IMG/VR virus record: IMGVR_UViG_3300035698_027840
Coordinates: 1-22,731 of that record
DNA: 22,731 bases
Origin: a virus
Direction: 5' to 3' (one strand)
Shown here: positions 1,734 to 21,668 of the stretch, in pieces
Position numbering within the stretch: position 1 is the first letter of the stretch
How the letters are laid out: each line of letters begins with the position of its first letter
The notes under the pieces: model-generated
What the model was told of the DNA's origin: nothing
The model's database searches: none
Seen by the model: only the letters and a program-made list of their open reading frames with translations
Position numbers and translations under genes: made by a program

Positions 1734-2339
1734 TTATATATCCTTCCATGTCTTCCCAGTTTTTATCGAATGCATTGTTGTCATTGATACATTATAATCT
1801 TTTGAAAGCCTAGTTGATGTAATTCCCACGTCTAACTTCTCTTTAATTTCTTTAACCTGTTCTATTGTTAACCGTTCTCCAATACATCTTCCTCTTTCCA
1901 ACTTATCCCTTTGATTATTTAAGGCTGTGCCTAAATAAAGATGGTCTGGGTTAACACATTTTGGATTATCACATTTATGCAAAACCCATAAATCATTAGT
2001 AATCTCACCTTTATATATCATCCAAGCTGCGCGATGCGCCGTATATCTTTTACCTCTAAACGTAAAATTTCCATAAGGAAGGCGACCACTGCCTTTTGTT
2101 CCACCAATCCAATTCCAGCATCCTTCACCTTTTTCAAAGAACTTCTCAAGAGACAACCTCATTTTTTCAATAACTTCTTTAGGGGTATCGTTAGCCCATT
2201 TTTCTAGTTGATTTTTTCTAGATATATCTCCAGCATACTTACAACAACACGTTCTGGAACACGTCTTAGCTCTGTCAAACTTATCTTTTCTAGGGTAAAA
2301 ATCTATACCACAAACCACACACTTCTTACTCTTTGTCAT
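1734..2339 (-). CDS. Free-standing HNH endonuclease (homing-type)
   Basis: Predicted 201 aa. Residues 7-33 hold a cysteine-rich zinc-finger-like part (C7, C10, C27, C31-C33). Residues about 74-138 match the HNH_3 type of nuclease: W-x-W, YG-x-F, then HRAAWMIYKG (H102), VLHKCDNPKCVNPDHLYLGT with H121, C123, C128, N130 and H133. The C-terminus (about 158-201) looks like a helix-turn-helix DNA-binding segment (LTIEQVKEIKEK ... LSKDYNVSMTTMHSI). Such enzymes cut DNA at specific sites and promote their own spread between phage genomes. The gene is wedged between two structural genes with intact frames on both sides. Its ribosome-binding site lies in a perfect hairpin (2342-2381), a type of control known for phage endonuclease genes. 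The target site is unknown; the group I intron in the capsid gene is one possible partner. Confidence 0.9.
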   Translation of the reverse strand: MTKSKKCVVCGIDFYPRKDKFDRAKTCSRTCCCKYAGDISRKNQLEKWANDTPKEVIEKMRLSLEKFFEKGEGCWNWIGGTKGSGRLPYGNFTFRGKRYTAHRAAWMIYKGEITNDLWVLHKCDNPKCVNPDHLYLGTALNNQRDKLERGRCIGERLTIEQVKEIKEKLDVGITSTRLSKDYNVSMTTMHSIKTGKTWKDI

Positions 2340-13508: not shown

Positions 13509-14764
13509 TTAACTTAATGTTGCTTTAAGATTGATTATCCATAAGTCATTAGTAATACGAGGAACTTCTGCAAACTTATAACCAACAGAACAATTTAATG
13601 CTAAAGGCCCATCGTAAATTGGTGGACGATAAATAAATTGACTGGAAAACGAGTCCTGATCGATAGATGCGTAAGCTTCCATACCTACACAGAAAATGTT
13701 GTAAACATTTACACCCAAGTTGGATGCATTTGCTGATACCGAACCTGCTGAAGAAAGCAAGAAGCGAAGATTACCAATTGCACCCCATTCAGATCTTAAG
13801 CCTTCTTTTGGATCTGGATATTGATTCTTATGAACAAATCCAGCAACTGCATCTAAATTTCCTGAGAGTTGAGTCGAAGCTAATGCAAAGTAAGAATCAC
13901 GAATCGGAGCTGTTCCAAATTTATTTTCGCCTACTATATTATCCATAACCGTATAAGCGTCGTTGTTTAACAATGCTCTTACAACTCCATCAATGTCTGC
14001 TCGTGTTACTTCGGTTGGATTGTCTCCGTTAACACCTGCAGTACAATTAATAAGTGATGCTGTTGCTGCCAACATATCTCTTGTTAATTGATCTTCTGTC
14101 TGACGAAGAGAAACACCCAATCGCTTGGCTGCTTCGTTCAAAACTGGATCTTGTGCCTGTAAGGTTCGATCTGTTACTTGTATTGACTACTTTGTGTTTG
14201 CAAAGTAGCGGTGAGTCTTGTTATTCCTCACTCCCAATATCTCTATTGGGGCCCGACTGTCGCTTCACCATTAGGTGTCCACTCGCCTCAGTCTGTCAGC
14301 GTGATATTTATTTCATTTTTAAATATCTTCGCCCCTGTCACCCTCGACTCTACGTTAGGGCTTCCAAGTCAATCAGAGCGGATTTAAAGCAGGCAATTAA
14401 CCTACAATCACAAGAAATTTCAAAGAACTATTTTTATCTACCTGCTCGTTAATTTGTATATAGGTCACTCACAAATTAACTATTACGGCACCTATGCTTT
14501 ACCGTAAAAACTCATCTTTGCATCAATATCAACAGCACTAAGAGTTTGTGCTGGTGGAGTTACTCCTGTATTCCCCAATGGAACCATTGCAGTATTAAGA
14601 GCGTTATATCTCCTCATACGCAGTGTAGTACCACCGTTACGTGGCATTTGTTTTTTCATTGAAGGAATTTTATGAATTAACGAAGGAGTTGGTACAGATA
14701 AAAGTTTATAACTAAAACTTTGCTGAACCGGCGCTGGAAGTAAGGTTGTTGTTGTTATTGCCAT
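13509..14764 (-). CDS. Major capsid protein, N4-gp56 family, in two exons split by a group I intron
   Basis: Exon 1 is 14764-14501 (88 codons; ATG with AAGGA 6 nt upstream). Exon 2 is 14186-13509 (225 codons plus stop). Joined, they give 313 aa with an unbroken frame through ...AKMSFYG|SIQVTDRTLQAQ DPVLNE.... The downstream part is clearly the N4-gp56 family of HK97-fold capsid proteins: LRQTEDQLTRDMLAATAS, INCTAGVNGDNPTEVTRADI, FGTAPIRDSYFALA, QFIYRPPIYDGPLALNCSVG and KFAEVPRITNDLWI. This protein forms the icosahedral shell around the scaffold encoded just upstream. Without splicing, translation stops two codons into the intron (KA, stop), giving a useless 90-aa product. A short product starting from the TTG at 14141 would lack the N-terminus. 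Exon 1 is Pro/Thr-rich, as expected for the family's N-terminal arm. Confidence 0.92.
14187..14500 (-). ncRNA. Group I self-splicing intron in the major capsid gene
   Basis: On the minus strand the exon end TTACGGT pairs with intron GCCGTAA; the final T faces G, giving the U-G pair that marks a group I 5' splice site (P1). P2 is GTTAATTTGT with ACAAATTAAC. P3 is TTGCCT with AGGCGA. P4 is CTCTG with CAGGG, P5 TTGACT with AGTCGA, and P6 GCG with CGC plus an 8-bp extension. P7 is ACAGACTG with CAGTCGG, close to the Tetrahymena guanosine-binding site. P8 is CACC with GGTG. P9, P9.1 and P9.2 follow, with a GAGA tetraloop in P9. The 3' end at G14187 is set by reading frame plus the terminal-G rule. 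It contains no open frame, so any homing enzyme acts in trans. P10 is weak, which leaves the exact 3' site less certain. Confidence 0.92.
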
Positions 14765-19473: not shown

Positions 19474-19806
19474 CTACCAATATCTGAAGCTTACCAAACT
19501 ACGATAGCACTCACTGCAGCAAGATCTAGGCTTTAAAGAAGTAAAAGCAGATCTTGTTTTTACCAACTCCTTACCACATCTACACCTACATAAAAACTCT
19601 AAAGCGTTGATGCTATCTTTCTTTTTAATGATTTTAACTACCGTCCATTGCCCTCGCTTATCACCTACCTCAATTGAACTAAGGTGTTGTCTTAAATCAA
19701 AAAGCTCACTCCCTCTTTCTCCATATTTTTCAATCGCATCTCCCAGCGTAGTCCCACGCGGATATATCCCAAGTTGTCTAAATATTTCAATACGTTTTTT
19801 TTCCAT
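19474..19806 (-). CDS. Zinc-ribbon protein, copy A
   Basis: Predicted 110 aa. The N-terminal half is helical (EIFRQLGIYPRGTTLGDAIE). The C-terminal half is a four-cysteine zinc ribbon: DKRGQWTVVKIIKKK, then CRCRCGKELVKTRSAFTSLK, then SCCSECYRS. This layout (G.W.V, CxCG, then CxxC) is common in small phage proteins and in the N-terminal part of some homing endonucleases. The gene at 21363-21668 has the same layout, so the two probably share ancestry and now flank the large terminase gene. No nuclease core is present, so it is probably a DNA- or RNA-binding protein or a relic of a mobile endonuclease. Confidence 0.7.
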   Translation of the reverse strand: MEKKRIEIFRQLGIYPRGTTLGDAIEKYGERGSELFDLRQHLSSIEVGDKRGQWTVVKIIKKKDSINALEFLCRCRCGKELVKTRSAFTSLKPRSCCSECYRSLVSFRYW

Positions 19807-19999: not shown

Positions 20000-21362
20000 T
20001 TAATACTTAGAAAAGCCATCATTAAAAAAACCAGGCAACTGTTGATTTCCAGACATAGCCTCTCTGTAGTTTTTATCTATGTCTTCAGCAGAAAGACCAT
20101 CTCTGGTTTTAGGCAAGGATAAACAAAGATACCTAAAGCTATCAGCAAAATTACTTGAAGAATCGTGAAGTGGTTTGCCACGATAAATCTTTCTCTTCGA
20201 GTCATACTCCTGTCTATAACTTTCTATAGCCTTTAAAAGAGGCTGAGCTTTTGTTTCATCAAGCCAAACCTTAGCAAATGTTGACCGACAAGCCTCTATC
20301 CCATCCTCAAGTGATAATTTAGGGGCAATAAGAAACCTTATTCCAAGTTGTCTGGCCTTTTCCAGCCGAGAAACCCCTGTACCCAATTCACGCACAGCAA
20401 TGTCGTGAGGAGCAAAATGCTTACCATAAGTATAATCAAGAGAACTAAGATACTTAATATAAAACTCAAGGCCCTGTGAAGTATTTTCATAACAATCAAT
20501 TATTCGTACCGTCGTTCCTATTGTTTGAAAGAATATGATCGATGTTGCATCCCTCATGCCGAGATCCCATGATGTGTGGACCTTAAATGCTGGCTCCCAT
20601 GGCACTGTAGTTATCTGACCGTTCAACCTCATTTTGTCCAAATAGCGTGAATAATAACTACCTTCTATACCAAGGTCAAACGACGTGAAATATTCCTGCA
20701 TGATAAGATCTTCAGACATCAGTCCCTCAGCCTTCTCTTTCTCTATCTGATGACGAGATATATGGCAGGTCTCATCGAGCGTTAGCTTATAACAAAACCA
20801 ATCAGGAGAGTTTTGTGCAATTTGATAAAGCTCATAAAGATGGTTTTGACGGCCACGTGGAGTAGACTCGAAAATCGCCCACCCACCGTTAGCCACCAGA
20901 ATTGGCCTTAAAAACTGGTAAGCCTTGGGATCTTGAATCGCATACTCTGAAAATACACAACCTCTTGGGTTAGTTCCGCAAATGCTATCAATATTTTCAC
21001 TTCCTATCAGCTGAATAAGCGATCCATTGGATAAGAAGACTTTCATTTCCTGAGAATTGGAAGAACTCACTAAAGTTGGAGGAATGAAATCCCTAAAACG
21101 CATGCCCTCATTTGTTATGGAATCCCATATAACCTTCTTAGCCTGAGAATAGGTTGGAAAGATGTAGTAATAGACTCCTACCTTGCGTAGAGCCTGGCGT
21201 ATTAATAGGTTCCAACAAACAATGTCTTTACCCAGCGCGTCGAGGCCAGATGGCCAGGACGCGCTTATATCCTTTATTTTCTATAGCATCAAAGATAGGT
21301 AACTGATATGTCCTGGGAACAAATTTGTTTAAGTATATTTTATTTTCTATGTCGGTTGCCAT
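20000..21362 (-). CDS. terL: Large terminase subunit (packaging ATPase and nuclease), read in two frames
   Basis: The ATG at 21362 directly follows the stop of the zinc-ribbon gene, with AGGGAAGG upstream. Frame 1 runs 44 codons to ...LAIWPRRAG and stops at TAA 21230-21228. Skipping one T (21230) continues as KDIVCWNLLIRQALRKVG... to the stop at 20000, giving 453 aa. The joined sequence RRAGKD is the Walker A motif of the packaging ATPase. GCVFSEYA (about residues 134-141) is Walker B with the catalytic Glu. The C-terminal half has HTSWDLGMRDATSIIFF and NFADSFRYL, with acidic residues of the RNase-H-like nuclease that cuts concatemers. No alternative start exists in the second frame before the ATG at 21103, which lies beyond the Walker A motif. 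The break is therefore a programmed +1 frameshift, a sequencing error or a disabling mutation. Confidence 0.9.
21227..21233 (-). other. terL: Frameshift site in terL (GGG TAA A)
   Basis: On the minus strand the zero-frame codons are GCT GGG TAA AGA. Moving one base forward at GGG gives GGT AAA GAC, which keeps glycine in the P site (GGG to GGT) and meets Lys-Asp of Walker A. A stop codon after a slippery codon is the layout of known +1 sites such as that of RF2, although no Shine-Dalgarno-like stimulator was seen just upstream. Confidence 0.6.
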
Positions 21363-21668
21363 TTAACAGCCTTCCCTAAAAAAAGGTCGTCTTTTATTCT
21401 TCTTACGAGCTAGTCGAAACGCTTTATCGATACAATATGAACACATAAGGTTTTTATTCTGTCTAATTTTTGAATATTTAAGAATGGCTTCTGTACCACA
21501 AGAGCATCTTGCCCTATACACCTTCCTCCCATTATCATCCCTATTCCTTTCAATTATTGTCCATTCCCCAATAACATCTCCAGGATAAAAATCAAAGGGG
21601 ATGCGTTTCTTAGCGTTACCTCTTTCTACACGCAAAACCTCCGAATCTAAAACAGTTACTCTTTTCAT
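21363..21668 (-). CDS. Zinc-ribbon protein, copy B
   Basis: Predicted 101 aa. The ATG overlaps a stop codon upstream (TAATG at 21670-21666), and its own TAA abuts the large terminase start. A basic N-terminus (MKRVTVLDSEVLRVERGNAK) precedes a zinc ribbon: GDVIGEWTIIERNRDDN, then ARCSCGTEAILKYSKIRQN, then MCSYCIDKAF, with a Lys/Arg-rich end (RLARKKNKRRPF). The cysteine spacing (CxCG, then CxxC) and the G.WTxI core match copy A at 19474-19806. The directly preceding stop belongs to a leftover small-terminase tail, so this gene may have arrived with a rearrangement between terS and terL. Function unknown; nucleic-acid binding is likely. Confidence 0.72.
   Translation of the reverse strand: MKRVTVLDSEVLRVERGNAKKRIPFDFYPGDVIGEWTIIERNRDDNGRKVYRARCSCGTEAILKYSKIRQNKNLMCSYCIDKAFRLARKKNKRRPFFREGC

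Follow-up and report, generated by a model that had tools for sequence, protein, structure and literature searches.

We describe a candidate recoding signal in the large terminase gene (terL) of a virus contig of 22,731 bases, IMG/VR record IMGVR_UViG_3300035698_027840, analysed at full length (positions 1 to 22,731, hereafter the window). The gene lies on the minus strand and is broken by one base within the codons of the Walker A motif, the ATP-binding P-loop of this phage enzyme, where the sequence GGG TAA A probably acts as a programmed recoding signal. A preliminary description of the window had proposed a programmed +1 frameshift at this place, with a sequencing error as its main alternative. 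Judged from sequence only, the proposal gains support from (i) a hairpin next to the break that stands out in two controls, (ii) breaks that recur at the same place in related genes and (iii) terminases of cultured phages that are split at this position, and sequencing error is rejected as the main cause. The description had located GGGTAAA correctly at 21233-21227; the minus strand, the hairpin and the recurrence were absent from it.

Frame 0 of terL starts with ATG at 21362-21360, runs for 44 codons (MATDIENKIYLNKFVPRTYQLPIFDAIENKGYKRVLAIWPRRAG) to WPRRAG and ends with TAA at 21230-21228, so that the 5′ open reading frame (ORF) occupies 21228..21362 (minus strand). Alignment to intact relatives defines the shift site GGG TAA A (21227..21233, minus strand): GGG is the Gly codon in the P site, UAA stands in the A site, GGU is the overlapping +1 codon and AAA encodes the P-loop Lys. 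Skipping one base leads into KDIVCWNLLIRQALRKVG, a frame open to the stop at 20002-20000; this 3′ ORF in the +1 frame (20000..21229, minus strand), which begins KDIV, encodes the remaining ATPase and the nuclease part. WPRRAG-TAA in frame 0 and KDIV in +1 thus complete the Walker A motif, as the preliminary description had read them. Its claim that no start codon yields a one-frame terminase with an intact Walker A motif also holds when the stretch upstream in the +1 frame, KIKDISASWPSGLDALGKD, is read directly: ATG, GTG and TTG are all absent from it, so that no ordinary start can give an unbroken TerL with this P-loop. As expected for +1 frameshifting, two overlapping ORFs jointly encode one known protein, re-pairing from GGG to GGU is possible, and the codon in the A site, UAA, is slow. 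The part after the break finds phage terminases by tblastn (897 phage records), a 367-amino-acid TerL part gives a weak match to the terminase family PHROG 7579, and the TerL family profile matches two terminase chains of known structure, 4znj and 4zni (E about 1e-7); the only Pfam match, GpA_ATPase, is below threshold.

Two relatives are nearest among 12 loci, L002 (identity 89% in the aligned part of TerL) and L003 (86%), and form one clade with the window in which L002 is closest to L003. L002 reads WPRRAGKDIV in a single frame. In L003 the frame breaks at this codon too, but by another route: it reads GCT GGT TAA GGC AAA GAT, with six extra bases that include an in-frame stop. Unbroken relatives without a slippery site were what the preliminary description had named as evidence against its proposal; here the outcome is mixed, L002 being unbroken and L003 broken at this codon with another offset.

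Immediately 5′ of the shift codon, a 32-nucleotide (nt) hairpin is predicted (21234..21265, minus strand), with the sequence AGCGCGTC-CT-GGCC-ATCT-GGCC-TC-GACGCGCT forming 8 base pairs (bp), a 2x2 internal loop, 4 bp and a tetraloop. L003 has a perfect 14-bp stem at the equivalent position, and the stem of L002 is weak. We folded 33 nt, up to and including the Ala codon immediately 5′ of the Gly codon, and obtained −23.4 kcal/mol for the window, −26.7 kcal/mol for L003 and −13.3 kcal/mol for L002. None of 124 intact TerLs folds as low as the window or L003 (mean −5.8, lowest −16.7 kcal/mol). In a second control, the peptide KRVLAIWPRRA was kept and its codons were drawn 20,000 times at the codon usage of the window: no recoding reached the energy of the window or that of L003 (0/20,000 each), and 200 of 20,000 reached that of L002. 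All three genes encode these same 11 residues at the hairpin, and the difference between the window and L003 on the one hand and L002 on the other is therefore synonymous. By these statistics the hairpin is a beyond-chance element of the kind expected to stimulate +1 frameshifting. The weak stem of L002 may be what is left of a formerly shared hairpin, as would be expected if the signal was lost once the frame had been restored. Downstream of the site, the structure in the window is ordinary, its energy being reached by 78 of the 124 intact TerLs, and L226 is the sole extreme case.

The break recurs. TerL loci were collected by four profile or protein scans of viral contigs, two DNA patterns and one genome scan (2 loci); after removal of DNA duplicates, 159 TerL contigs remained, 153 of which cover the P-loop region (it is absent from L013, L105, L129, L154, L172 and L211). 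Nine of the 153 are frame-broken at the P-loop: the window, L003, L095, L142 (the L223 contig), L165 (=L260), L226, L227 (=L270), L233 (=L245) and L242. Two more, L171 and L196, carry inteins there. Elsewhere inside the gene we found one break, in an A-run of L191, besides stops in the last dozen codons of L069 and L150. Since L226, L227, L233 and L242 were retrieved by a pattern that requires a break and the window was given beforehand, the fair count is four P-loop breaks (L003, L095, L142 and L165) among five internal ones. The chance of this is about 1e-8 for a target of three codons in 450, a width set post hoc. With a recurrent break codon and an exceptional hairpin adjoining it, the position of the break is more than chance.

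Six of the broken genes share a second design. A DNA pattern with an extra base before the Gly codon found 32 stretches, six of which are in-frame TerLs; when the extra base was placed behind the Gly codon instead, as in the window, the pattern found 42 stretches and no in-frame TerL. The six read GCC CGG CAA AGA (L095, L142 and L242) or GCC AGG CAA GGA (L226, L227 and L233). GCC plus GGC occurs in 6/6 of them versus 2/111 intact TerLs (binomial 3e-11), and CCG-AGG in 5/6 versus 3/111 (binomial 8e-8), the six being treated as independent in both calculations. A Shine-Dalgarno-like GAGG stands 3 nt 5′ of GCC in five of the six, and a Shine-Dalgarno-like 4-mer at that spacing in 3 of 111 intact TerLs. 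The Arg codon in the A site is AGG or CGG, and the one used at the site makes up 1-6% of the Arg codons of its contig. On a FastTree tree of 141 TerLs, built with the N-terminal part excluded, the six sites need six changes, each beside intact sisters (the placement of L095 is uncertain). Comparison of L226 with its intact sister L091 gives 96-100% identity over positions +24 to +71 and +96 to +119 from the P-loop, 88% between these tracts and 62% across the 24 nt of the P-loop itself; the drop beside near-identical sequence indicates that the motif originated or was acquired locally, as a tract of its own. The six sites and the window share the phenomenon by its place, and the signal is different.

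Breaks at this position are compatible with viable phages. In the cultured Streptomyces phages phiHau3, GreenWeasel and BroPlease, the terminase is split between the P-loop Gly and Lys: AAG GGT TGG GGC is followed by TTAC[T/C]CCGGT and then by AAG GAC, and their relatives Diane and RedBear encode KGWGKD in an unbroken frame. A review names a likely terminase bypass in phiHau3 (PMC5009743); that the site would be the P-loop is our identification from the sequence and is not given in the accessible part of the review (PMC5009743). In GreenWeasel (L348, 2403-4069) the annotation divides the split terminase into two hypothetical proteins and one terminase. Among the contigs, that of L233 (35,283 bp) carries the same 99 nt as an exact direct repeat at both ends, which points to a complete genome; we found in it the two parts of one terL and no second terL.

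These data are best explained by the following mechanism. After 44 codons the ribosome would halt, the peptidyl-tRNA-Gly paired with GGG and the A site occupied by UAA; this tRNA would then slip by one base onto the overlapping GGU, and translation would resume at AAA GAC, so that the P-loop RRAGKD would be uninterrupted and the motor protein complete. The slip is probably stimulated by the 32-nt hairpin that adjoins GGG on its 5′ side: with GGG in the P site, the 3′ arm of the hairpin would lie inside the ribosome, and re-formation of the stem at the rear of the ribosome should promote slipping forwards. L003 would use an equivalent layout with a 6-nt shift, from take-off at GGU over UAA to landing at GGC just before the P-loop Lys.

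A mistake in sequencing or assembly is an unlikely source of the extra base, and so is a recent mutation that has inactivated an ordinary TerL. The window is one base away from an unbroken frame, this base lies in a GGG run, and the sister L002 is intact. Such an accident would not account for the adjoining hairpin and its controls (0/124 and 0/20,000), for the break of L003 at the same codon by 6 nt with a stop, or for nine breaks at the P-loop codon versus one elsewhere inside the gene. Further single-base frame breaks were not noticed in the window, where the capsid gene alone is otherwise interrupted, by a long insert.

Several observations weigh against programmed recoding in the window. 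The hairpin is present in only two relatives, the window and L003, and L002 of the same clade is intact. It touches the P-site codon, whereas the 5′ stem-loop of T4 gene 60 sits further upstream. The six GCC-[A/C]GG-C sites are without this hairpin (12 to 113 of the 124 intact TerLs fold as low), and the 5′ folding energy of the Hautrevirus trio is not unusual, so that the hairpin is not a family-wide signal. Among the matches listed (60 of 138 records in each of two overlapping listings), no isolate has a TerL of this family that is broken in this way. On the other side, the two halves of the broken genes evolve at a low ratio of non-synonymous to synonymous changes (pN/pS), which counts in favour of recoding, though a very recent break would look alike: the values for the two halves are 0.23 and 0.12 for the window versus L002, 0.24 and 0.15 for the window versus L003, and 0.20 and 0.06 for L003 versus L002. 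In the distant pair L095 and L176 they are 0.46 and 0.57, with synonymous sites near saturation.

The P-loop is also a conserved DNA target for mobile elements. Besides the inteins of L171, which carries a LAGLIDADG domain, and L196, an HNH gene lies directly upstream of terL in L165, together with a duplicated 5′ piece of terL whose end lies just short of the Arg codons of the P-loop; a related HNH gene (54% identical) stands directly upstream of terL in L142. A scan with this HNH pair returned five loci, the close matches being those two contigs only. These neighbours invite a second alternative, in which inverted repeat and broken codon belong to the DNA level, as a scar at the target of a homing endonuclease or as an allele that resists it, and hardly any programmed translation, if any, takes place. 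We consider this distinctly improbable. Within 1.5 kb upstream, an HNH motif occurs at 2/8 broken, 5/98 intact and 3/16 other loci (those with at least 900 nt of upstream sequence), and the ninth broken locus, L233, has no HNH match in its 849 nt; the association is weak, and HNH neighbours are not upheld as a clear cause of the breaks. Moreover, the phages would have no terminase without recoding, L233 being apparently complete and showing no second terL, and a synonymously built hairpin is better explained at the RNA level. A looser zinc-ribbon pattern (7/8 broken versus 13/98 intact) was given no weight because it matched unrelated zinc proteins and was picked post hoc.

Given the weak HNH association, a homing-element origin of programmed recoding at the P-loop, which recalls T4 gene 60, is a tentative hypothesis and somewhat less likely than not. 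A low terminase level may be another use of recoding. In the window, two zinc-ribbon ORFs on the minus strand flank terL, one directly upstream (21363..21668; non-catalytic part of phrog_374, E=1.3e-7, residues 20-85) and one on the other side (19477-19806; similar to part of phrog_374). Both resemble a part of the phrog_374 HNH endonucleases and are devoid of the HNH motif. An HNH_3 endonuclease ORF (Pfam PF13392) is found at 1737-2339 (minus strand). Other insertions in terL were also seen. In L165 (=L260) the P-loop is split at about 2953-2990 by 23 nt that begin with TAG and could form GCCC-TTCG-GGGC; its own fold favours a different structure, and no landing codon that would restore GKD was found in this insert. 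A second insertion point at residues 396-410, near the nuclease motif, holds about 0.7-1 kb in L081, L178 (=L345), L189, L196 (=L197), L200, L201, L206 and L226, with an HNH-like ORF in L178 and L226. L057 has a partial extra copy of TerL residues 195-257 (2506-2694) downstream of an intact terL.

Restoration of the frame by another event at the RNA level (a very small intron, editing or transcriptional slippage) is hardly credible: an intron-like insert does occur in the capsid gene of the window, but inserts of 1 and 6 nt are shorter than known introns permit, a long homopolymer is absent from the site, and a search of 13 loci, the window among them, gave no Rfam match at or above the gathering score. 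The capsid insert itself splits the major capsid gene (phrog_1357 on both sides) by about 340 nt at 14157-14494 (minus strand), has no open frame and gives no credible Rfam match.

Frame-broken terminases in viral metagenomes are easily written off as errors or dead genes. If the breaks are programmed, recoding takes place at the catalytic codons of a universal phage gene, and two or more stimulatory designs are open to testing. It is conceivable, though rather doubtful, that the P-loop Gly-Lys codons of TerL are a general recoding locus in tailed phages, where unlike signals (a hairpin with a Gly slip at a stop; GAGG, 3 nt and GCC-[A/C]GG-C; a 7-nt Gly-to-Gly hop) have arisen at this one pair of codons out of conflict with inteins and HNH homing elements, for which this conserved DNA is a target, and also keep the motor protein low. 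Recurrence, inteins and an HNH cassette at one site would allow a direct test of recoding as a shield against homing endonucleases, an idea that has hitherto rested mainly on T4 gene 60. The hairpin design, the GCC-[A/C]GG-C design and the recurrence appear to be new, whereas +1 shifting, bypassing and the proposed phiHau3 bypass are known; in the accessible part of the open-licence literature we found no earlier account of frameshifting that recurs at the P-loop of terminases.

Comparison with known recoding systems shows partial likenesses. phiHau3 shares with the window a TerL split at the P-loop Gly/Lys (KGWG|KD), with Gly take-off at GGC and Gly landing at GGT, in viable cultured phages; it differs in having another TerL sequence, a 10-nt insert with a 7-nt gap, UUA instead of a stop after the take-off codon and 5′ folding that is not unusual. 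T4 gene 60, for which an origin by homing endonuclease has been proposed (PMC5009743, PMC11194080), has a short first ORF (46 amino acids versus 44 in the window), a Gly take-off codon followed by a stop and a 5′ hairpin, but a 50-nt gap and a nascent-peptide signal where the window requires a 1-nt shift. A stop after take-off and a 5′ stem-loop are thus found in the window as in gene 60, the position of the stem being unlike. Matched Gly take-off and landing codons around a coding gap are found in L003 (GGT TAA GGC) and phiHau3 (GGC TTACTCC GGT) and not in the window, where GGG and GGU overlap. In bacterial RF2, as proposed for the window, a tRNA in the P site shifts by +1 while a stop codon occupies the A site. 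The stimulator of RF2 is an internal Shine-Dalgarno sequence placed 3 nt from the shift site, which is the distance given for Shine-Dalgarno elements that promote +1 shifts (PMC5009743); the window has no Shine-Dalgarno-like sequence 3 nt 5′ of its P-site codon, whereas five of the six GCC-[A/C]GG-C relatives have GAGG. In Ty1 (CUU_AGG_C), a slow AGG and the overlapping GGC drive the +1 shift (PMC5009743). In the six relatives, too, a slow Arg codon (AGG or CGG) is overlapped by the Gly codon GGC, the AGG case being that of Ty1, and the codon before it encodes Ala, which is also so in Ty3 (GCG_AGU_U; PMC5009743). Ty1 and Ty3 are yeast retrotransposons with other P-site codons, and the layout of the window is unlike theirs.
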